Assembly (NCBI RefSeq): GCF_017305435.1
Contig: NZ_JAFKIP010000006.1
Location: 248,001-312,000, forward strand
Direction: 5' to 3'
Length of the DNA stretch: 64,000 nucleotides
Origin: Microbacterium sp.
GTDB lineage: Bacteria > Actinomycetota > Actinomycetes > Actinomycetales > Microbacteriaceae
Shown: positions 54,624 through 63,489 of the stretch, piece by piece
Layout: each line of letters starts with the position of its first letter
How positions within the stretch are numbered: position 1 is the first letter of the stretch
Notes under the pieces: model-generated
What the model saw: the letters and a program-made list of their open reading frames with translations, nothing else
Databases searched by the model: none
Told to the model about the DNA's origin: nothing
Program-made: the position numbers and the translations under genes

Positions 54624-55720
54624 GCGACGGCCTCCTTCGACTGCGTGGTTTCGGGCTCCGCTGCGGCTCCGGGCTGCGCCGTCGGCGGACCGGCGTCGGG
54701 GGTGCGCGGTCCGACGCGGCGGCGCAGGACGAGCGAACGGACCCGCTCGGACTGCAGCAGCACGAGGGCGACGATCACGATCGCTTTGAACGCGGGGGTC
54801 GCGGCGGCGGACACTCCGAGGAAGAGGACGGTCTTGTTCAGGGTCGCGATCAGGAGCGCGCCGACCGTCGAGCCGACGATGGAGAACTTGCCGCCGGCGA
54901 GGGACGTGCCGCCGATGACGACCGCGAGGATCGCGTCGAGCTCCATCTGGTAACCGGTGCCCGACACGTCGACGGTCATGACCTCGGAGACCGTGAAGAG
55001 CCCGCCGACGGCCGCGAGCGCGGCGGAGAGCACGTAGACGGCGATGAGGATGGGGCGCGGACGGATGCCGGCGAGCCGGCTCGCGTGCGGGTTGATGCCG
55101 ATCGACTCGATCATGAGCCCGAGGGCTGTGCGCCGCATGACGAGCGACACGATCACGACGATCGCGATCGCGAGGACGAAGCTCAGCGGGAGCCCGAGGA
55201 ACTGCCCGTTGGCGAGGGCGCGGAACGGCGCGTTCTCGGCGTTCGTGTTCTGGCCTCCGGTGATGACGCGTGCGATGCCGCGCCCAGCGAGCATCATCAC
55301 GAGCGTGCTGATGAACGGCTGGAGGCCGACGACGGCGACGAGGAAGCCGTTGACCGCTCCGAGCACGGCGCCGAGGAGGACGGCCAGCCCGATGGCGGCG
55401 AACATGGCTCCGACGGATGCCGGCTGGTCGAGGCTGCTCAGCGTCACCATCGCGATCGCCCCGCCGACCGCCATGACCGAACCGACCGAGAGGTCGATGC
55501 CGCTCGTGGCGATGACGAAGGTCATGCCGAGCGCGATCATGACGATGGGCGCGGATACGCGCAGGATGTCGAGCACGTTGCCTGCGACCTGGCCCGTCGT
55601 CGGGTTGATCCCGATCGCGAGGTAGCCGGGGTCCTTCAGGGTGTTCAGTGCGAGCAACAGGGCGATGCCCACGATGCCCCAGAACCAGGGGGTGCGAACG
55701 AGCGCTCTCACGCGGTTCAT
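54620..55720 (-). CDS. Sugar ABC transporter permease (YtfT-like)
   Basis: This 366-residue permease of the same family has IATSGIDLSVGSVMAVGGAI and VVGLQPFISTLVMMLAGRGI, plus DAILAVVIGGTSLAGGKFSI. The C-terminal 40 residues are Pro/Ala-rich and cytosolic. The start is ATG 55720 in an ATGA overlap with the ATPase gene. Two distinct permeases with one tandem ATPase is the YtfQRT-YjfF arrangement for galactofuranose or arabinofuranose-like sugars; here arabinose is likely by context. Confidence 0.9.
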   Translation of the reverse strand: MNRVRALVRTPWFWGIVGIALLLALNTLKDPGYLAIGINPTTGQVAGNVLDILRVSAPIVMIALGMTFVIATSGIDLSVGSVMAVGGAIAMVTLSSLDQPASVGAMFAAIGLAVLLGAVLGAVNGFLVAVVGLQPFISTLVMMLAGRGIARVITGGQNTNAENAPFRALANGQFLGLPLSFVLAIAIVVIVSLVMRRTALGLMIESIGINPHASRLAGIRPRPILIAVYVLSAALAAVGGLFTVSEVMTVDVSGTGYQMELDAILAVVIGGTSLAGGKFSIVGSTVGALLIATLNKTVLFLGVSAAATPAFKAIVIVALVLLQSERVRSLVLRRRVGPRTPDAGPPTAQPGAAAEPETTQSKEAVA

Positions 55721-57300
55721 GCCGATTCTCCTTCGACGGTCTCGGCGAGTCGGTCGGCGCGGGCCTCGGCCGCCTCCTCCGAGTCGGCGGCGATGATCGA
55801 GACGATCCGCTCGGCCGTCACATCGGGGCCGTTCACGACCTCGCCGACCTTCTGGTGGTCCTTCATGATCACGATGCGCTCGGAGAGGCGCACGACCTCC
55901 TCGAGCTCGGAGGAGATGAACACGACGCTCATCCCGCCTTCGGCGAGCTCCGCGACGGTCTCCTGGATGTCGGCCTTGGCGCCGACGTCGATACCGCGCG
56001 TGGGCTCGTCGAGGAGCAGCAGCTCGGGCTCGGTCGCGAGCCACCGCCCGAGCAGGACCTTCTGCTGGTTGCCTCCGGAGAGCAGGCGGATGGGCCGGTC
56101 GGGGTCGTTGGGGCGCACACTGAAGCGCTCCATGTACGTCGTGACGAGGCGATCGACCTCGCGCGCCGGCACACGGCGCAGCCAGCCGCGCTGCGCCTGT
56201 ACGGCCAGCATGATGTTCTCGCGGATGCTGAGGTCGCCGACGATGCCGTCCTCGCGACGGTTCTCGGTCGAGTAGGCGATGCGGTGGGCGAGCCCGGACA
56301 CCGGCGTCGAGATGCTCGCGGGCGAGCCGTTCACGCGCACGTCACCGGCATCCGCCTTGTCGGCACCCACGATGAGACGGGCGAGCTCCGTGCGGCCGGA
56401 TCCGAGGAGACCCGCGAAGCCGACGACCTCGCCGCGGTGGATGTCGATGTCGGTCGCCGCGAGCGCGCCGCTGCGGGCCAGGCCCGTCGCCGCGTACACC
56501 GGGGTGGCGGAGCGGTCGCGCTCGTCGACCTGGCGGTTGGAGCCGAGCGCTCGCAGCGCGCCGAGGTCCTTGCCGATCATCTTCGAGATGAGCGCAGTGC
56601 GGTCGAGGTCGCGCGTCAGGTACTCGCCGACGAACCGTCCGTTGCGCAGCACCGTGATCCGGTCGCTGATCGCGTAGACCTGGTCGAGGAAGTGCGAGAC
56701 GAAGAGGATGGCGACGCCCTGGTCGCGCAGGCGCCGGATGACGCGGAAGAGCATGTCGACCTCGGCGGTGTCGAGGCTCGACGTCGGCTCGTCGAGGATG
56801 AGGACCTTCGAGCGCGTCACCATCGCGCGGCTGATCGCGACGAGCTGCTGGAGCGCGATCGAGATCGAGGACAGCGGCGCCTTCGGGTCGAGGTGGCCGA
56901 GTCCCATCTCGATCAGCGCCTCGTGTGCCCGCGCGTGAGTCTTGCGCCAGTCGATGCCGAAGAGGGAGCGCACCTCGTGGCCGAGCATGACGTTCTCACC
57001 GATCGAGAGGTTCGTGCAGAGGTTGACCTCTTGATACACGGTGGAGATGCCGGCGGCCTGCGCCGAGGCGGTCCCGGAGAAGCGGCGCTCCTCACCGAAG
57101 ACGAGGATCGACCCGGAGTCGATCTGGTAGACACCCGTCAGCGCCTTGATGAGCGTCGACTTGCCGGCGCCGTTCTCACCCATGAGGGTGTGCACCTCGC
57201 CGGGCAGGAGACGGAAGTCCACGTCGTCGAGCGCCTTGACACCCGGGAAGGTGATGGACGCGCCGCGGACCTCGACGATCGGGAGGGGTTCAGTCACCAC
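55717..57300 (-). CDS. Sugar ABC transporter tandem ATP-binding protein (AraG/YtfR-like)
   Basis: This 527-residue protein has two nucleotide-binding domains. The first has Walker A GENGAGKSTLIKALTG, the signature region SSISIALQQLVAISRAM (degenerate: SISIAL in place of LSGGQ) and LILDEPTSSLD. The second carries the linker GEVVGFAGLLGSGRTELARL (degenerate Walker A), the signature LSGGNQQKVLLGRWL and LLLDEPTRGIDVG. This asymmetry is normal for the family. The start is GTG 57300, with a second GTG at 57297 equally possible. It energises the import complex. Confidence 0.93.
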   Translation of the reverse strand: MVTEPLPIVEVRGASITFPGVKALDDVDFRLLPGEVHTLMGENGAGKSTLIKALTGVYQIDSGSILVFGEERRFSGTASAQAAGISTVYQEVNLCTNLSIGENVMLGHEVRSLFGIDWRKTHARAHEALIEMGLGHLDPKAPLSSISIALQQLVAISRAMVTRSKVLILDEPTSSLDTAEVDMLFRVIRRLRDQGVAILFVSHFLDQVYAISDRITVLRNGRFVGEYLTRDLDRTALISKMIGKDLGALRALGSNRQVDERDRSATPVYAATGLARSGALAATDIDIHRGEVVGFAGLLGSGRTELARLIVGADKADAGDVRVNGSPASISTPVSGLAHRIAYSTENRREDGIVGDLSIRENIMLAVQAQRGWLRRVPAREVDRLVTTYMERFSVRPNDPDRPIRLLSGGNQQKVLLGRWLATEPELLLLDEPTRGIDVGAKADIQETVAELAEGGMSVVFISSELEEVVRLSERIVIMKDHQKVGEVVNGPDVTAERIVSIIAADSEEAAEARADRLAETVEGESA

Positions 57301-57355
57301 GTTGAGACTTCCTCATTGAGTATGCGTGTCACCGCTGGGAGTGGTGGAGGGTGGT

Positions 57356-57393
57356 GGGGTGGGGACCGCCGCGGGGACGGCGATCCCCACCCC
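57356..57393 (-). terminator. Stem-loop between the sugar-binding protein and ATPase genes
   Basis: GGGGTGGGGA (57356-57365) pairs exactly with TCCCCACCCC (57384-57393). The 120-nt gap of the operon holds nothing else. It likely causes partial termination or 3' protection so that the binding protein is made in excess over the channel subunits. Confidence 0.6.
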
Positions 57394-57420
57394 GGTATTT
57401 GTGCGGGGCGCGGGGCCGGC

Positions 57421-58434
57421 TTAGAAGCCGAGACCCTCGTCGAGCGCCTTCTGGCCCGCCTCGGGCGAGTCGAACGTCGCGCTCTTGACGATGATGGTCG
57501 AGTCGACGCTCTCACCCGCGAGGGCCTTCTTCACGGCATCCACCGCGTCGGTGCCGAAGAACGGGTTGTACTGCGCGACGAAGCTCAGGTCGCCCTTCGC
57601 GAGCGCCTCGAGCGCACCCTTCGTGCCGTCGATCGTGGCGATCTTGACGTCGGTGCCGGGCTTGAGGCCCGCCGCCGTGACGGCCTGCGCCGCGCCGATG
57701 CCCATCTCGTCGTTCTGAGCGAAGATGAACTGGATGTCGTTGTTGTTGGCCTTGAGGACCGTCTCGATGACGGACTTGCCCTCATCGGTCTTCCAGTTGG
57801 CGGTCTGCGCGCCGACCTTGTTCCAGCCCGACTTGCCGGCGATCGCCGAGTCGAAGCCCTCGTTGCGCTCGTTGACGACCGACAGACCGGGAACGCCCTC
57901 GAGCACGAAGTAGTTCGCGCCCTGCGGGAAGGCGGTGACCGCCCACTCGCCGACGGACTTCGCGACCTGCGTGTTGTCGGGCGCGATCCGGGTGACGTAG
58001 AGGTCGCTCGGAGCGTCGACGCCGCGGTCGAGCAGGATGACGGGGATCTCCGCCTCCTTGGCCTTCTTCAGCTCGTCCTCCCAGCCGGATGCCTCGGTCG
58101 CGGTGAGGAGGATGACATCCACCTCGTCGTTGACGAAGGTCGAGAAGGCATCGAGCTGCGACTTCTGGTCGCTCGGGCTCGCGGCGGGGGCGTACTTGAG
58201 GTCGAAGCCGGCATCCTTCGTGAAGGCGTCCTTGATCGCCTGCTCGTTCGCGTTGCGCCAGCCGCCCTCGGGGCCGACCGCGACGAAGCCGACCGTGACG
58301 ACGTCGTCGCCACCGGCGGCGTCGCCCGTGCTGCCGGCGTCCGCACCGCCGGAGCAGGCGCTGAGGCCGGCGACCAGGGCTCCGGTCGCTGCGAGCGTGA
58401 GCAGTCCGCGGAATCCGCGCTTGGTGATGTGCAT
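57421..58434 (-). CDS. Sugar ABC transporter substrate-binding lipoprotein
   Basis: This 337-residue binding protein of Peripla_BP_4 type (YtfQ/RbsB-like) has a signal ending in LVAGLSACSGG (lipobox). The first domain includes VTVGFVAVGPEGGWRNANEQ, the hinge strand VDVILLTATEASGWEDEL and IPVILLDRGVDAPSDLYVT. The second domain includes QFIFAQNDEMGIGAAQAV and DVKIATIDGTKGALEAL. It is the first gene of the arabinose operon after the regulator. The start is ATG 58434 with AAGGAGGAG upstream. Confidence 0.92.
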   Translation of the reverse strand: MHITKRGFRGLLTLAATGALVAGLSACSGGADAGSTGDAAGGDDVVTVGFVAVGPEGGWRNANEQAIKDAFTKDAGFDLKYAPAASPSDQKSQLDAFSTFVNDEVDVILLTATEASGWEDELKKAKEAEIPVILLDRGVDAPSDLYVTRIAPDNTQVAKSVGEWAVTAFPQGANYFVLEGVPGLSVVNERNEGFDSAIAGKSGWNKVGAQTANWKTDEGKSVIETVLKANNNDIQFIFAQNDEMGIGAAQAVTAAGLKPGTDVKIATIDGTKGALEALAKGDLSFVAQYNPFFGTDAVDAVKKALAGESVDSTIIVKSATFDSPEAGQKALDEGLGF

Positions 58435-58453
58435 TCTTTCTCCTCCTTGAGAA

Positions 58454-58471
58454 GCCCCGCGAGCGCGGGGC
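58454..58471 (-). promoter_or_regulatory. Stem-loop in the leader of the sugar-binding protein
   Basis: GCCCCGC (58454-58460) and GCGGGGC (58465-58471) form a 7-bp stem with a 4-nt loop, just upstream of the ribosome-binding site of the binding-protein gene. It could stabilise the mRNA or modulate translation. Confidence 0.4.
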
Positions 58472-58536
58472 GTAGGCTGCGCCGACGGGCGCGGGACAGT
58501 GCGGGTGCATGGAGGCATCGGGTGCCTTCGAAGAAG

Positions 58537-58600
58537 ATTGTGCGCGCTAACAACCCGTCAGCGCAAGTCGTTTCGGCATATTCGTTACGGTTCTGTTACC
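58537..58600 (-). promoter_or_regulatory. Arabinose operon promoter with LacI-type operator
   Basis: Minus-strand TTGCGC (58566-58561) and CACAAT (58542-58537) are 18 bp apart. A palindrome, TTGTGCGCGCTAACAA on the plus strand (58538-58553), close to the LacI/GalR consensus, overlaps the -10 box, so a bound repressor would block the polymerase. GTTAC occurs twice, 11 bp apart (58584-58588, 58595-58599), upstream of the -35 box, and could be an activator site. Confidence 0.65.
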
Positions 58601-58621
58601 GCGAACACGTCCGGCCGAAGA

Positions 58622-59641
58622 TCAGCTCGCAGGAGGCGCAGTCGAGGCGCGGACGACGAGCTCGGGGGCGATGAGTTCGTGTATCGCGGTGTCGTCGCCG
58701 TCGATCGCGGCGATGAGCAGACGCAGCGCGAGGGAGCCCAGCGCGGTGAAATCCTGACGCACCGTCGTGAGCGGAGGCAGGAAGTGCCGCGCGTCGGGAA
58801 GGTCGTCGAAACCGGCGACGCTCACATCCCCCGGCACGCGCATCCCTCGATCGACGAATCCGTGGATGAGACCCAGCGCCATCTGGTCGTTCCCCGCGAA
58901 CACGGCGGTCGATCCGCCGAGCTCCCTCGATGTGCCGATCCGGTACCCGGAGTCCGAGGTCCAGTCGCCCTGCGCGACCCGCCCCTCGGACAGGCCGCGG
59001 TCGCGCAGCTCGTCGCGCCACCCCTGCCAGCGGGCGCGGGCGTCATACCAGTCCAGGGGGCCGGCGACGTGCGCGATCTCCCGATGCCCCTGCTCGACGA
59101 GGTGCGCGACCGCCATCCGCGCGCCGGCGTATTGATCGACGCCGGCGGTGTGCAGGTGTGCGTCGGGCTCGGACTTGATCACGAGGGTCGGCATGTTCGA
59201 GCTGTGCTCGCGGAACAGCTCCAGCGCCGACGATCGGGGGGCGATGACGCACAGGGCATCGATCCCCTGCGCGACGAGGTCGGCGATCCCGGCCGAGATG
59301 GTCTCGGCGTCCTCGTCCGAGGTGGCGAAGGCGCTCACCGAGTACTGCTGCGCGCGGGCGGCGCTCTCGATCGCCCGCAGCGTGCTGTTGGGGCCCCACT
59401 GCACGGGACTGTCGACGAGGACGCCGATGCGCATCGTCCGGCTCGTCGCGAGCGCGCGGGCGATCGAGCTGCGGGTGTACTGCATCTCGTCGATCGCCTT
59501 GACGACCCGCGCTCGCGTCGACTCGCGGATGTTCGGGTGTCCGTTGAGCACGCGCGACACCGTCATGTGCGACACTCCGGCGGCCCGCGCCACGTCGTAG
59601 ATGCTGGGCTTCTGCCAGCCCCGGTGCGCGTCTTCGGACAT
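58622..59641 (-). CDS. LacI family transcriptional regulator of arabinose genes
   Basis: This 339-residue regulator has an N-terminal LacI helix-turn-helix (PSIYDVARAAGVSHMTVSRV, LNGHPNIRESTRARV) with the hinge helix SSIARALATSRT. The periplasmic-binding-protein-like sugar domain ends the protein (VFAGNDQMALGLIHGFVDRG, VSVAGFDDLPDARHFLPPLT). The start is ATG 59641, 5 nt after GAGGGG; an ATG at 59668 would overlap the TACGAT promoter box. It is just upstream of the sugar-binding gene and probably represses it from the site at 58538-58553 until arabinose binds. Confidence 0.92.
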   Translation of the reverse strand: MSEDAHRGWQKPSIYDVARAAGVSHMTVSRVLNGHPNIRESTRARVVKAIDEMQYTRSSIARALATSRTMRIGVLVDSPVQWGPNSTLRAIESAARAQQYSVSAFATSDEDAETISAGIADLVAQGIDALCVIAPRSSALELFREHSSNMPTLVIKSEPDAHLHTAGVDQYAGARMAVAHLVEQGHREIAHVAGPLDWYDARARWQGWRDELRDRGLSEGRVAQGDWTSDSGYRIGTSRELGGSTAVFAGNDQMALGLIHGFVDRGMRVPGDVSVAGFDDLPDARHFLPPLTTVRQDFTALGSLALRLLIAAIDGDDTAIHELIAPELVVRASTAPPAS

Positions 59642-59666
59642 TCGTCCCCTCTTCCTCGCTGCGGTC

Positions 59667-59672
59667 ATCGTA
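59667..59672 (-). promoter_or_regulatory. -10 box of the LacI gene
   Basis: Minus-strand TACGAT (59672-59667) gives a leader of about 20 nt that contains the GAGGGG ribosome-binding site. It supports ATG 59641 as the start. Confidence 0.45.
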
Positions 59673-60636: not shown

Positions 60637-60852
60637 TCAGGGCGCGGTGAGGTCGGCCACGAGCTGCGCGATCTCGGACTCGTCGAGCGTCATCCCGATG
60701 TCGGTGAGGCGGTGCCGGAGCGCCTGCTCGACGGTCGCGGCATCCTCCCCCTGCACATCGGCGCGCATCTGCGCGACGAGGCCGTCGAGTCGCTCCTGCT
60801 CGGACGCGGTGTTCTGCTCGAGCACCGGCTCGTCCTGCGTGTCTTCGGCCAT
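60637..60852 (-). CDS. Small acidic hypothetical protein
   Basis: This 71-residue protein is acidic and helical: QERLDGLVAQMRADVQGEDA, then ATVEQALRHRLTDIGMTLDE and a SEIAQLVADL C-terminus. I do not recognise a family. The start is ATG 60852, where GAGGGGGA lies 5 nt upstream; ATG 60870 is weaker. Codon use is like that of its neighbours. It converges with the alpha/beta hydrolase, 9 nt away. Confidence 0.7.
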   Translation of the reverse strand: MAEDTQDEPVLEQNTASEQERLDGLVAQMRADVQGEDAATVEQALRHRLTDIGMTLDESEIAQLVADLTAP

Positions 60853-60957
60853 GGGGTCCCCCTCGCTCATGCCTCGATGACGCCATCGTCGCCCGGCGCC
60901 CGCCGGATCGGCAGGGGCTTGACGACCGGGGATGAGCGGGGTACCGGCTGGCAGCGC

Positions 60958-61257
60958 TCAGCCGACGGAGCGCTGTTCGAGGAGCCCCGCGTGGTCGGGG
61001 TGCGCGTCGAACCAGTCCGCGACGTACCAGCAGACCGGCCGGACGGTGCGGTCCGCACGCTGCTCGATGTCGGCGACGGCGCGCTCGACCACGTCCGCTG
61101 CGTAGCCGCGTCCGCGGAACGCGGGCACCGTATAGGCCCGAGTCAGAGCGAGCGTCCGCCCGTCATCGCGGTAATCGAGGACGCTCACGAGGTCATCGCC
61201 GCGGTGCAGGGTGAAGCGCGAGGCGTCCTTCTCGTCGGAAAACCGAAAGCCCGTCAT
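60958..61257 (-). CDS. GNAT-fold N-acetyltransferase, YjdJ-like
   Basis: This 99-residue compact acetyltransferase has the acetyl-CoA loop TVPAFRGRGYAADVVERAVA (R/Q-x-x-G-x-G/A type) and the C-terminal PVCWYVADWFDAHPDHAGLL typical of YjdJ/GTNAT proteins. The substrate is unknown; some members acetylate small-molecule or protein amines. The start is ATG 61257, with TAGCGT 6 nt upstream. It is divergent from the cysteine leader ORF. Confidence 0.88.
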   Translation of the reverse strand: MTGFRFSDEKDASRFTLHRGDDLVSVLDYRDDGRTLALTRAYTVPAFRGRGYAADVVERAVADIEQRADRTVRPVCWYVADWFDAHPDHAGLLEQRSVG

Positions 61258-61263
61258 GTCTCC

Positions 61264-61269
61264 ACGCTA
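61264..61269 (-). promoter_or_regulatory. Leaderless -10 box for the GNAT gene
   Basis: Minus-strand TAGCGT, then GGAGAC and ATG 61257. The whole 15-base block is identical to that before sbcD. Confidence 0.5.
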
Positions 61270-61346
61270 CGCCGCCGAGCCGCTCCCGGCGCCGATTGTG
61301 CACTCTGTCACATTCCGTCACGAAACCCGGGCGCGCGACGTGCGGT

Positions 61347-61376
61347 TTGACACAGTCCGCAACCGTTCGTCATAAT
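61347..61376 (+). promoter_or_regulatory. Near-consensus promoter of the cysteine leader ORF
   Basis: TTGACA (61347-61352) and CATAAT (61371-61376) are separated by 18 bp, the best sigma-70-like promoter in the window. The expected start coincides with the ATG at 61384, so the leader ORF is leaderless. The 126-bp gap upstream holds a possible direct repeat TGTCAC/CGTCAC before the -35 box. Confidence 0.75.
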
Positions 61377-61383
61377 CAGGCTC

Positions 61384-61482
61384 ATGACTGACAACGCACG
61401 CACTCTGTCCGCCCGGGAGGCGAACGGATCTGCCGGCATCATGATGCCGCGCGTTGCCATGTGTTGCCGAATGTGTCTCTGA
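61384..61482 (+). CDS. Cysteine-ended leader peptide (putative attenuator ORF)
   Basis: A 32-codon ORF begins at the likely transcription start and ends in RVAMCCRMCL, with three cysteines among the last six codons. It begins MTDNARTLSAREANG. It is too short for most gene finders. Cysteine-rich leader peptides that govern sulfur genes by translation-coupled attenuation are described in mycobacteria and other actinobacteria. Here the next gene in the same direction is a winged-helix regulator 233 nt further on. Function is inferred from the layout and the C-terminal cysteines. Confidence 0.65.
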   Translation: MTDNARTLSAREANGSAGIMMPRVAMCCRMCL

Positions 61483-61496
61483 CGGTCATCCCCGCC

Positions 61497-61536
61497 GGGT
61501 CCGCCCTCGTCTTCTGAACGACGAGACGGCAGACCC
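61497..61536 (+). promoter_or_regulatory. Stem-loop after the cysteine leader ORF
   Basis: GGGTC (61497-61501) with GACCC (61532-61536) and CTCGTC (61506-61511) with GACGAG (61520-61525) form a two-part stem 14 nt after the leader stop codon. It could be an attenuator stem. The rest of the gap, 61537-61715, shows no ORF with a ribosome-binding site and appears to be 5' untranslated. Confidence 0.5.
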
Positions 61537-61715
61537 CCGAGTCACCGGATGTCTCCGCCCACAACGCGGCTGACGGATGCCTCGCACACCGGCCCCTCCC
61601 CCTTCATCGTCGCCTGACGTCGGTGACAAAGGGGCCGCTCTCGCAGCACACACCCGAATCCGACGGACACGCGCACGGCGCACCGCCCGGGTTCCGCCCC
61701 GAAGGACTTCTCCTC

Positions 61716-62453
61716 ATGTCGACCACCGCCCTTCTCGACTCGCCCGCCGCTCCCCTCGCTCCCGCCACGACGCCGCGTCACCTGCACGCCGTCGATGCGG
61801 CCCCGGCATCCGTCCCCGCCTCCGCTCCCACGACCGGCGCGATCCCGGTGGGCACCGCCCCGCGCGGCTTCGCCCTGTACGTCGGGCTCGATGAGCTGAA
61901 GGCCGCCGCCGACGGCGTCTCGCTCTCGACGATCGTCACGGCGCTCCGTCAGACCCTCGCCGAGCTCGCTCCGCAGGCGGAGAGCTACGCGACCGTCGCG
62001 CTCGCCCCCGCCTCCGCCGGTGGCCGCGACGTCGATGTCGTGCGCCTCGCTCTGCACGAGCCGAGCGCCGTCGCCCGCACGAAGACCGAGGAGCCCGACC
62101 AGGACCACGTGCCCGGGGGCGTCACGATCGACATCTCGCGCCGCCGCGTGCACATCGACGGCGAGGGCGCCGCGCTCACCTTCAAGGAGTTCGAGCTGCT
62201 GCAGTACCTCGTCCTGCGCGAGGGCCGCACGATCGAGCGCACCGAGCTCGTCTCCTCGCTGTGGAGCCACGCCGACGACGGCGAGGCTCCCGGTGAGCGC
62301 ACGATCGACGTGCACGTGCGTCGCCTGCGCGCCAAGCTCGGCCGCTACGAGGACATCGTGCGCACCGTGCGCGGCATCGGCTACCGGTTCGACCGGCACG
62401 CGGACGTCGTGATCCGCTTCGGCCACGGCACGCCCTCTCCCGACCGATTCTGA
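61716..62453 (+). CDS. Orphan winged-helix (OmpR/PhoB-type) transcriptional regulator
   Basis: This 245-residue regulator has a C-terminal Trans_reg_C winged helix (residues about 140-230): GGVTIDISRRRVHIDG, LTFKEFELLQYLVLREGRTI, RTIDVHVRRLRAKLGRYEDI and VRTVRGIGYRFDRH. The N-terminal 130 residues are not a response-regulator receiver; no phospho-acceptor pattern is seen. They start with a low-complexity Ala/Pro/Thr stretch, followed by LYVGLDELKAAADG and SLSTIVTALRQTLAELAP. The start is ATG 61716 with GAAGGA upstream; GTG 61623 is a weaker alternative. Its position behind a cysteine leader suggests a role in sulfur metabolism. Confidence 0.85.
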   Translation: MSTTALLDSPAAPLAPATTPRHLHAVDAAPASVPASAPTTGAIPVGTAPRGFALYVGLDELKAAADGVSLSTIVTALRQTLAELAPQAESYATVALAPASAGGRDVDVVRLALHEPSAVARTKTEEPDQDHVPGGVTIDISRRRVHIDGEGAALTFKEFELLQYLVLREGRTIERTELVSSLWSHADDGEAPGERTIDVHVRRLRAKLGRYEDIVRTVRGIGYRFDRHADVVIRFGHGTPSPDRF

Positions 62454-62502
62454 CGACGCGCGAGGACGACGCCGCGGGTGCGTCGGTGTCCGGTGAGTGA
62501 CG

Positions 62503-62508
62503 TACAGT
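62503..62508 (+). promoter_or_regulatory. Leaderless -10 box for the DNA glycosylase gene
   Basis: TACAGT ends 6 nt before ATG 62515 and argues against the upstream start at 62497. Confidence 0.5.
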
Positions 62509-62514
62509 GACGGC

Positions 62515-63489
62515 ATGACGACGCGGGTGAGGATGCCGAGGCCTGCCGCCGCGCCCGCTCGTGACCCTCGCCCGGCACCCGAACGCCCGATCGAGACGGA
62601 GTACCGTCCCCGCACTCCGATCGACGCGCACCGCGCGATCGCGCTGCAGCAACGCGGGACGCACGACCCCGCCCAGACGAGCACCGCGGGCGTCATCTGG
62701 CGCGCGAGCCGTACCCCCGCGGGCGTCGCGACCCTCGCGATCCGCGTCGAGCGCGCGCGCGTGCGCGCTGCGGCATGGGGGCCGGGCGCCGAGTGGGCGC
62801 TCGATCAGCTACCTCGTCTGTGCGGCGCCGACGACGATCCGATCGGGTTCGACCCGCACCGTCACGCGCTCGTCGCCGAAGTGCACCGGCGCCACGCCGA
62901 CCTGCGCCTCGGTCGCACCGACCTCGTCTTCGATGCCCTCGCGAGTGCCGTCTTCGAGCAGAAGGTCACGGGCCTGCAGGCGTTCGGCGCGTGGCGCATG
63001 ATCCTGACCTGGTGCGGCGAGCGCGCGCCCGGCCCGACCCCGCGCCCGATGTTCGCACCGCCCGCCGACTGGCACCTCGTCCCCAGCTGGACCTGGCATC
63101 GCGCGGGGCTCGAGCCGCCGCAGTCGCGCACGATCGTGGCGGCCGCCGCGCGCCGCGCGTCGATCGAACAGGCAGCGGGGGCGGCATCCACGGGCGCCGA
63201 ACGCGACGCCGTCTTCACGAGTCTGCCGGGCGTCGGCGTCTGGACGAGCGCGGAGGCGCGCATCCGCGCCTTCGGCGACCCGGATGCCGTGAGCGTGGGC
63301 GACTACCACCTCGCCCATCAGGTCGGCTACGCGCTCATCGGCACGCGGGTCGACGACGACGGCATGGTCGCGCTCCTCGAACCGTGGCGTGGCCACCGAC
63401 AGCGGGTCCTGCGCCTCCTCGCGCTGAGCGGGGTTCTGGAGCCCCGGCGGGGTCCGCGTCTGGCGCCCGAGGATCACCGCGCTCGCTGA
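62515..63489 (+). CDS. DNA-3-methyladenine glycosylase II-like (AlkA/HhH-GPD)
   Basis: This 324-residue base-excision repair protein of the HhH-GPD superfamily has the helical core FDALASAVFEQKVTGLQAFG. Then come the helix-hairpin-helix loop FTSLPGVGVWTSAEARIRAF and the catalytic aspartate region DAVSVGDYHLAHQVGYAL. There are no [4Fe-4S] cysteines, so it is AlkA-like rather than Nth-like. The N-terminal 45 residues are Arg/Pro-rich and probably disordered. It would remove alkylated purines from DNA. The start is ATG 62515 by its leaderless box. Confidence 0.9.
   Translation: MTTRVRMPRPAAAPARDPRPAPERPIETEYRPRTPIDAHRAIALQQRGTHDPAQTSTAGVIWRASRTPAGVATLAIRVERARVRAAAWGPGAEWALDQLPRLCGADDDPIGFDPHRHALVAEVHRRHADLRLGRTDLVFDALASAVFEQKVTGLQAFGAWRMILTWCGERAPGPTPRPMFAPPADWHLVPSWTWHRAGLEPPQSRTIVAAAARRASIEQAAGAASTGAERDAVFTSLPGVGVWTSAEARIRAFGDPDAVSVGDYHLAHQVGYALIGTRVDDDGMVALLEPWRGHRQRVLRLLALSGVLEPRRGPRLAPEDHRAR

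Follow-up and report, generated by a model that had tools for sequence, protein, structure and literature searches.

The window analysed here, a stretch of 64,000 nucleotides from a Microbacterium genome, carries towards its 3' end a short open reading frame (ORF) with cysteine codons close to its stop, followed by the gene of an orphan winged-helix regulator. The elements to which we refer throughout are the following:

61347..61376, plus strand: promoter TTGACA-18-CATAAT, its -10 element ending 7 nt upstream of the leader ATG
61384..61482, plus strand: leader ORF MTDNARTLSAREANGSAGIMMPRVAMCCRMCL, presumably leaderless, 32 codons plus stop, C-terminus RVAMCCRMCL
61434..61449, plus strand: hairpin P0 within the leader ORF, CGGCA-TCATGA-TGCCG, just 5' of the Cys codons; compensatory changes, two registers
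61459..61476, plus strand: segment A, codons Met-Cys-Cys-Arg(CGA)-Met-Cys, with the core TGY-CGA-ATG
61483..61715, plus strand: spacer of 233 nt with 101 C and 62 G, a possible Rho loading region
about 61497-61536, plus strand: two-part stem with loop TTCTGAAC, from folding, noted first by an earlier sequence-only reading of this DNA
61643..61651, plus strand: candidate anti-leader element A', GCAGCACAC, able to pair with GTGTTGC if one G-U pair is allowed, placed by eye and by analogy
61656..61694, plus strand: hairpin P4, GAATCCG ... CGGGTTC, 5' of the Shine-Dalgarno sequence
61702..61706, plus strand: Shine-Dalgarno sequence AAGGA of the regulator
61716..62453, plus strand: orphan winged-helix regulator, 245 aa, with a GlnR-like DNA-binding domain

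The sequence-only reading had described a near-consensus promoter ahead of the leader ATG, and this is indeed what the locus contains: TTGACA (61347-61352) and CATAAT (61371-61376), separated by 18 nt, agree with the consensus at 11 of 12 positions and form the sole sigma-70-like site of the region 60700-62500 (shuffles: mean 0.0, sd 0.1). The 32-codon ORF with its RVAMCCRMCL end is likewise present as described (61384-61482), and the gap of 233 nt was recovered when measured from the leader stop to the regulator ATG. The distance from promoter to ATG (7 bases; ATG at 61384) makes a leaderless leader transcript plausible. As for a transcript shared by leader and regulator, on which that reading depended, our scan of 60700-62500 found neither a promoter-like nor a terminator-like site dividing the two, and no intrinsic terminator of the classical transcription attenuator type was found anywhere in that region. 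Rfam gave no match in 61250-61800 (E up to 1), nor in the whole window at gathering scores.

The downstream gene had been taken for a PhoB-type DNA-binding protein without a receiver; the DNA-binding character and the lack of a recognisable receiver both stand, whereas the nearest known relative proves to be GlnR and not PhoB. At a threshold of 0.001 the only Pfam domain in the regulator is PF00486 (Trans_reg_C), all of the NCBIfam matches listed (at least 25) start at residue 106 or later, and no receiver domain of OmpR/PhoB type is recognised by Pfam at this threshold or among those NCBIfam matches. A PDB profile match to PrrA (1ys6) spans residues 46-226 and, given this span, the protein may harbour a decayed receiver; the stretch around residues 50-120 is conserved, is not covered by any Pfam domain at 0.001 and is modelled at moderate confidence. 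Among solved structures, the DNA-binding domain of GlnR is the nearest to the C-terminal winged helix in both sequence and fold (8hml, with 44% identity, 8hig and 8hih). The GlnR matches are limited to this C-terminal domain, however: the receiver-type N-terminus of GlnR is not recognised in the regulator, and the same genome has a separate gene whose match to GlnR (8hih, E 4e-73) spans almost all of the sequence read.

How far is this arrangement kept? With the regulator as query, 39 of 58 drawn genomes match at E up to 1e-25, including all 35 drawn genomes of the window's genus, Microbacterium. We compared 30 same-genus loci, window included, which were picked by the regulator and not by the leader; nine of the 39 matches fall outside this locus set (five of the same genus and four of other families, G039 and G057 being among the nine), and matches in families f7 and f12 were left out of the locus comparison. 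All 30 loci contain an orthologous leader ORF, and each has, 6-7 nt ahead of the leader ATG, a promoter that agrees with the consensus at 10 or more of 12 positions. Conservation of the terminal Cys codons had been proposed as a check on the sequence-only reading, and they are conserved: of the three Cys residues in CCRMC, the first is retained in 29/30 loci, and the second and third in 30/30 each. The Arg codon is CGA in 40/40 ORFs of equal length, some of which were collected with a pattern in which the Cys codons were set but the third base of the Arg codon was free. Among relatives the leader stop differs (TGA, TAG or TAA) and the Cys codons alternate between TGT and TGC. Within the genus the whole of the leader peptide is conserved, and in other Microbacteriaceae much of it; the leader ORFs of the family also keep ATG-ATG-ATG plus further Met codons. 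In being a short ORF, shared by relatives, whose Cys codons lie near its end, the leader resembles the cysteine leaders of actinobacteria; the gene that follows is, in this case, a winged-helix regulator and not a gene of cysteine or sulfur metabolism.

Beyond the genus, the regulator was found at 1e-30 in 17 of 296 genomes of a class-wide draw, all of them Microbacteriaceae (f1) or Micrococcaceae (f6), and in each of 80 drawn Micrococcaceae genomes (31/31 genera). A leader with a CGAATG core precedes the gene in 53 of 65 named loci having the regulator or a full-length relative, a count from which we kept out 15 of 80 loci (L195-L209) that match in the DNA-binding domain or part of it. These leaders occur in Microbacterium, Agromyces, Cryobacterium, Clavibacter, Leifsonia, Leucobacter, Mycetocola, Curtobacterium, Frigoribacterium, Salinibacterium, Rhodoluna, Arthrobacter, Pseudarthrobacter, Sinomonas and Acaricomes. 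The leader was not found in 12 of the 65, in a scan that demanded CGAATG, so that diverged leaders could escape it: Nesterenkonia, Agrococcus, two Rothia, two Kocuria, Micrococcus, Citricoccus, Yaniella, Brachybacterium, one MAG and one Agromyces, whose locus is cut by the contig end. Of the 41 named Microbacteriaceae leaders, 40 have Cys ahead of Arg, with Rhodoluna having Met at this position, and two Clavibacter leaders hold one Cys each (SCRMSA, SCRMPA). In Micrococcaceae we assembled 31 loci, the 30 best-scoring plus L082, which hence do not include the most diverged. All 31 carry CGAATG ahead of the regulator, directly preceded by Cys in 25; at least two Cys codons are nearby in 28 and none in one. 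GTG is the usual start codon of the leader here, and the N-terminal half shows no relation to that of the Microbacteriaceae leader; the most constant part overall is Cys-CGA-ATG.

An exact search of the order with the pattern ATGTGYTGYMGNATGTGY matched 33 of 297 genomes (13/13 of the genus, 9/12 of the rest of the family and 11 elsewhere), compared with a single match for the backward control pattern in the same 297. Five matches in families f14 and f15 lie inside other frames and look like chance, and two f20 matches and one f1 match yielded no locus. The motif MCCRMC also stands before a cysK-like gene in 4/4 loci of family f10 (L041-L044), whose leaders end MCCRMCVECCCL or MCCRMCCEGCCL.

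In relatives P0 takes forms such as GCCGGC-ATGATGATG-GCCGGC, with the variants CCGACA/TGTCGG, GTCGGCA/TGCCGAC and GCCGGG/CCCGGC, and its mean stem score is 15.8 vs 10.2 (sd 3.4) for shuffles over 73 distinct Microbacteriaceae ORFs, which cover 29 of the 41 named leaders of the family (12 left out, including Rhodoluna with its Met before Arg). In one register covariation reaches 0.118, above all 500 shuffles, with slides giving 0.029 to 0.100; the other register is weak (0.100, a value attained by 45/500 shuffles, and 0.121 with a slide of +3). P0 probably accounts for part of the peptide conservation around MMM. The two-part stem after the leader ORF, which the sequence-only reading had mentioned, is present in the fold, yet it is not the best-conserved part of the element, its TTCTGA loop occurring in 17 of 45 loci; comparison better supports the in-ORF hairpin and a long-range pairing between CGAATG and CATTCG.

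This pairing of segment A with A' is supported comparatively, best in Micrococcaceae, where 25/31 loci have CATTCG at 40-50 nt upstream of the regulator start (21/25 by script and 4/6 of the remainder), against a background of 86 in 3348 windows of 70 nt from the same loci. Its flanks covary in these Micrococcaceae, as in CGAATGC/GCATTCG, CGAATGT/ACATTCG, CGAATGCA/TGCATTCG and CGAATGCAGG/CCTGCATTCG, and in most of the loci the complement of A' stops before reaching the Cys codons. Across 45 Microbacteriaceae loci, A/A' complementarity, with A' sought from 78 to 42 nt upstream of the regulator start, scores 17.9 vs 13.2 (sd 0.38) for shuffled regions; in a partner swap, a weak test that ignores kinship, 21/2000 permutations reach the own score, the swapped mean being 17.46. 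The A' region of the window scores 18.5, yet in a wider scan the best complement of the window lies elsewhere (-96, z 1.2). A search for duplexes between spacer and leader showed no signal with the last 27 nt of the leader (mean z -0.36 over 45 loci), but did show one with a 15-nt segment around the Cys codons (mean z 1.9). For 37 same-genus loci, aligned with gaps after the leader stop and before the regulator start, RNAalifold found no consensus structure; in the ungapped ORF of 47 sequences it found a weak one, without P0. Closer to the regulator, P4 recurs with the variants GAACCCG/CGGGTTC, GAGCCC/GGGCTC and GATCCG/CGGATC and scores a mean of 16.5 vs 13.3 for shuffles, with 13/45 loci above the 95% level and several favouring another stem. 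The spacer has a C/G ratio above 1.5 in 44/45 loci vs 1/45 regulator coding starts, and such a C-rich, G-poor composition would suit Rho.

Would a ribosome paused on the leader expose the start of the regulator? In our predictions for 45 loci, a single stalled ribosome left the accessibility of Shine-Dalgarno sequence and start where it was (0.366 to 0.367; up by more than 0.05 in eight loci and down in seven), and we rejected relief of Shine-Dalgarno occlusion by one stalled ribosome; in 25 Micrococcaceae loci there was likewise no predicted change of Shine-Dalgarno/start accessibility (0.447 to 0.434). When a second ribosome is queued behind the first, predicted accessibility rises in 19/19 loci whose start carries CATCATCATG (0.231 to 0.634, with a spacer-mask control at 0.236) and goes from 0.456 to 0.491 in the other 26. 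These CATCATCATG start regions, in 19/45 loci, are able to pair with the ATGATGATG of the leader; the window is not among the responders (0.39 to 0.41). Pairing of the leader ATG-ATG-ATG with CATCATCATG at the regulator start scores 18.4 with its own partner vs 17.5 with swapped ones (0/3000), which leaves this as a possible extra contact. Since accessibility is unchanged with one ribosome, and up with two only in the CATCATCATG loci, simple occlusion is not supported in general, and Rho-dependent attenuation or some other use of the A/A' contact seems as likely.

Taken together, a conserved attenuator-like leader before this orphan regulator is real: the ORF, its Cys codons, the promoter spacing and the pairing are all maintained between relatives. 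On balance we favour an attenuator that acts in cis, through the translating ribosome, on the gene of a transcription factor and so sets the level of the regulator, probably by way of cysteinyl-tRNA shortage. Transcription would begin at the leader ATG, as the promoter spacing suggests. When charged tRNA-Cys is scarce, the ribosome would pause at the Cys codons beside CGA-ATG and so cover segment A (UGY-CGA-AUG), which would otherwise pair with A' a few dozen bases before the regulator start. Keeping A and A' apart, and perhaps Rho off the C-rich spacer, would then yield more regulator; for this direction of the effect we reason by analogy with known cysteine leaders. The regulator, which has a DNA-binding domain of GlnR type and in which no receiver is recognised, would in turn convert cysteine shortage into a transcriptional response. 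The cysK-like gene behind the motif in f10, and a PALP gene behind an LTCRCCR leader in the window's genome, speak for this reading; leaders with one Cys or none near the core, Met in place of Cys in Rhodoluna, and the lack of a PF01507 match in the window's genome speak against it. If the reading is right, the signal of an orphan regulator would be named from DNA alone, and the sensor would be a small RNA switch.

The most serious alternative is that the leader is a general sensor of translation stress in the manner of the whiB7 uORF, with the regulator induced whenever ribosomes slow in the ORF, be it through antibiotics, the CGA codon or a shortage of Met or Cys, and cysteine not the specific signal. 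whiB7 is, after all, a transcription factor controlled by a uORF (PMC13236596), and it is CGA-ATG, not a run of Cys codons, that is most constant in the leader; the conserved Met codons, ATG-ATG-ATG among them, and the leaders with a single Cys or none near the core point the same way. CGA-ATG is, however, explained by RNA pairing, the Cys before Arg is all but invariant in Microbacteriaceae (the 40 of 41 above), and the 28/31 Micrococcaceae loci with at least two Cys codons near Arg retain them, though the A' complement mostly stops short of these codons. We regard a sensor of this general kind as rather unlikely. It is improbable, to a greater degree, that we are dealing with a structured RNA or RNA-processing site which works without translation, the ORF arising merely from base conservation: the CGAATG/CATTCG pairing and the hairpins P0 and P4 would fit, whereas the open frame, start codon and leaderless promoter spacing held in 30/30 same-genus loci do not, nor do stops that vary among TGA, TAG and TAA and Cys codons that vary between TGT and TGC. 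Least likely of all is a functional small protein, such as a metal- or thiol-binding peptide in an ordinary operon with the regulator, to which the full-length conservation in the genus, and largely in other Microbacteriaceae, might point, as the residues near MMM track the RNA hairpin with compensatory base changes that alter amino acids, the N-terminal half is unrelated in Micrococcaceae, and the 3' end of the ORF is complementary to a downstream element.

Under the attenuation reading, several known systems invite comparison. In mycobacteria, leaderless polycysteine sORFs stand upstream of the cysteine biosynthesis genes that they control (Canestrari et al. 2020, as related in PMC9094748 and PMC13236596). 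The two are alike in having a small ORF with Cys codons ahead of the controlled gene, leaderless there and presumably here; they differ in the target, a transcription factor in our case, and in the Arg(CGA)-Met after Cys, which here also pairs downstream. Candidate cysteine leaders of actinobacterial cys and cbs operons have a Cys run near the stop and no conserved terminator, and Rho was proposed to act (PMC1262725). The Cys run near the stop is shared, and a leader of the same look, LTCRCCR, precedes a PALP gene in the window's own genome; unlike those leaders, ours has a regulator as target and a conserved long-range pairing and in-ORF hairpin. The uORFC-8-2 motif before cysS in Rhodobacterales also has tandem Cys codons in a uORF, from which its authors infer attenuation, and ends in an intrinsic terminator (PMC8632094), in contrast to our locus, where none was found in 60700-62500. 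Finally, whiB7/wblC is an actinobacterial gene for a transcription factor that is likewise under attenuation by a uORF (PMC13236596); in our leader, the conserved codons are Cys codons. Our search of titles and abstract openings, with subscription papers largely beyond its scope, brought up no paper on this leader or regulator. The element extends the known cysteine leaders: these precede metabolic genes, and here one is maintained in two families ahead of a transcription factor that is itself uncharacterised.

What might the regulator govern? A sulfate-assimilation regulon is unlikely, because the window's genome has no match to PF01507, the family to which CysH and CysD belong. The same search drew a blank in 8 of 14 other genomes of the genus; the family is present in 6/15, one of them weakly, unlike the regulator, which is present in all genomes of the genus drawn. 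The second cysteine-type leader of the window's genome (locus L236, G000 C4:408203-409069, outside the window), ending LTCRCCR, lies 5' of the PALP gene, presumably a cystathionine beta-synthase, and recurs in 3/3 Microbacterium genomes compared (L236, L237 and L238), the stop-to-gene distance being 72-100 nt, and 100 nt in the window's genome; the G039 gene L232 does not have it. By eye, CTGTCG in this leader is complementary to CGACAG in its spacer. A broader proposal, which we hold possible rather than probable, is that a GlnR-derived regulator gave up its receiver and takes its input from RNA, with pausing on Cys codons setting its amount, to serve as a master regulator of cysteine/thiol supply in Microbacteriaceae and Micrococcaceae. 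It would be a sulfur counterpart of GlnR, and CGA-ATG would be codons and one strand of an RNA switch at once.

Some further features of these loci may be mentioned. In the Micrococcaceae regulator promoters (L085-L114) we observed a direct repeat, RTTACTTGC...RTTAC, which in L085 lies some 18-42 nt upstream of the leader start, and it occurs in Nesterenkonia too, where the leader was not found. The repeat resembles the GlnR box, GTnAC-n6-GTnAC (PMC10704036), and could reflect autoregulation or control by GlnR. Searched with up to three mismatches in seven genomes (six Micrococcaceae and G102 of another family), it is found in exact form only at the regulator's own promoter, in 5/6 Micrococcaceae, alongside ten inexact matches. 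In 6/6 Micrococcaceae loci (L085, L090, L099, L102, L108 and L110), the gene 3' of the regulator has what we take to be the look of a SixA-type histidine phosphatase. In the window, the regulator is followed by a 330-aa ORF (62497-63489) with no Pfam or NCBIfam match at 0.001, which by eye we presume to be like a DNA glycosylase. On the minus strand, 55717-59668 holds, again by eye, an apparent sugar ABC transporter ATPase, a substrate-binding protein and a LacI-type regulator.
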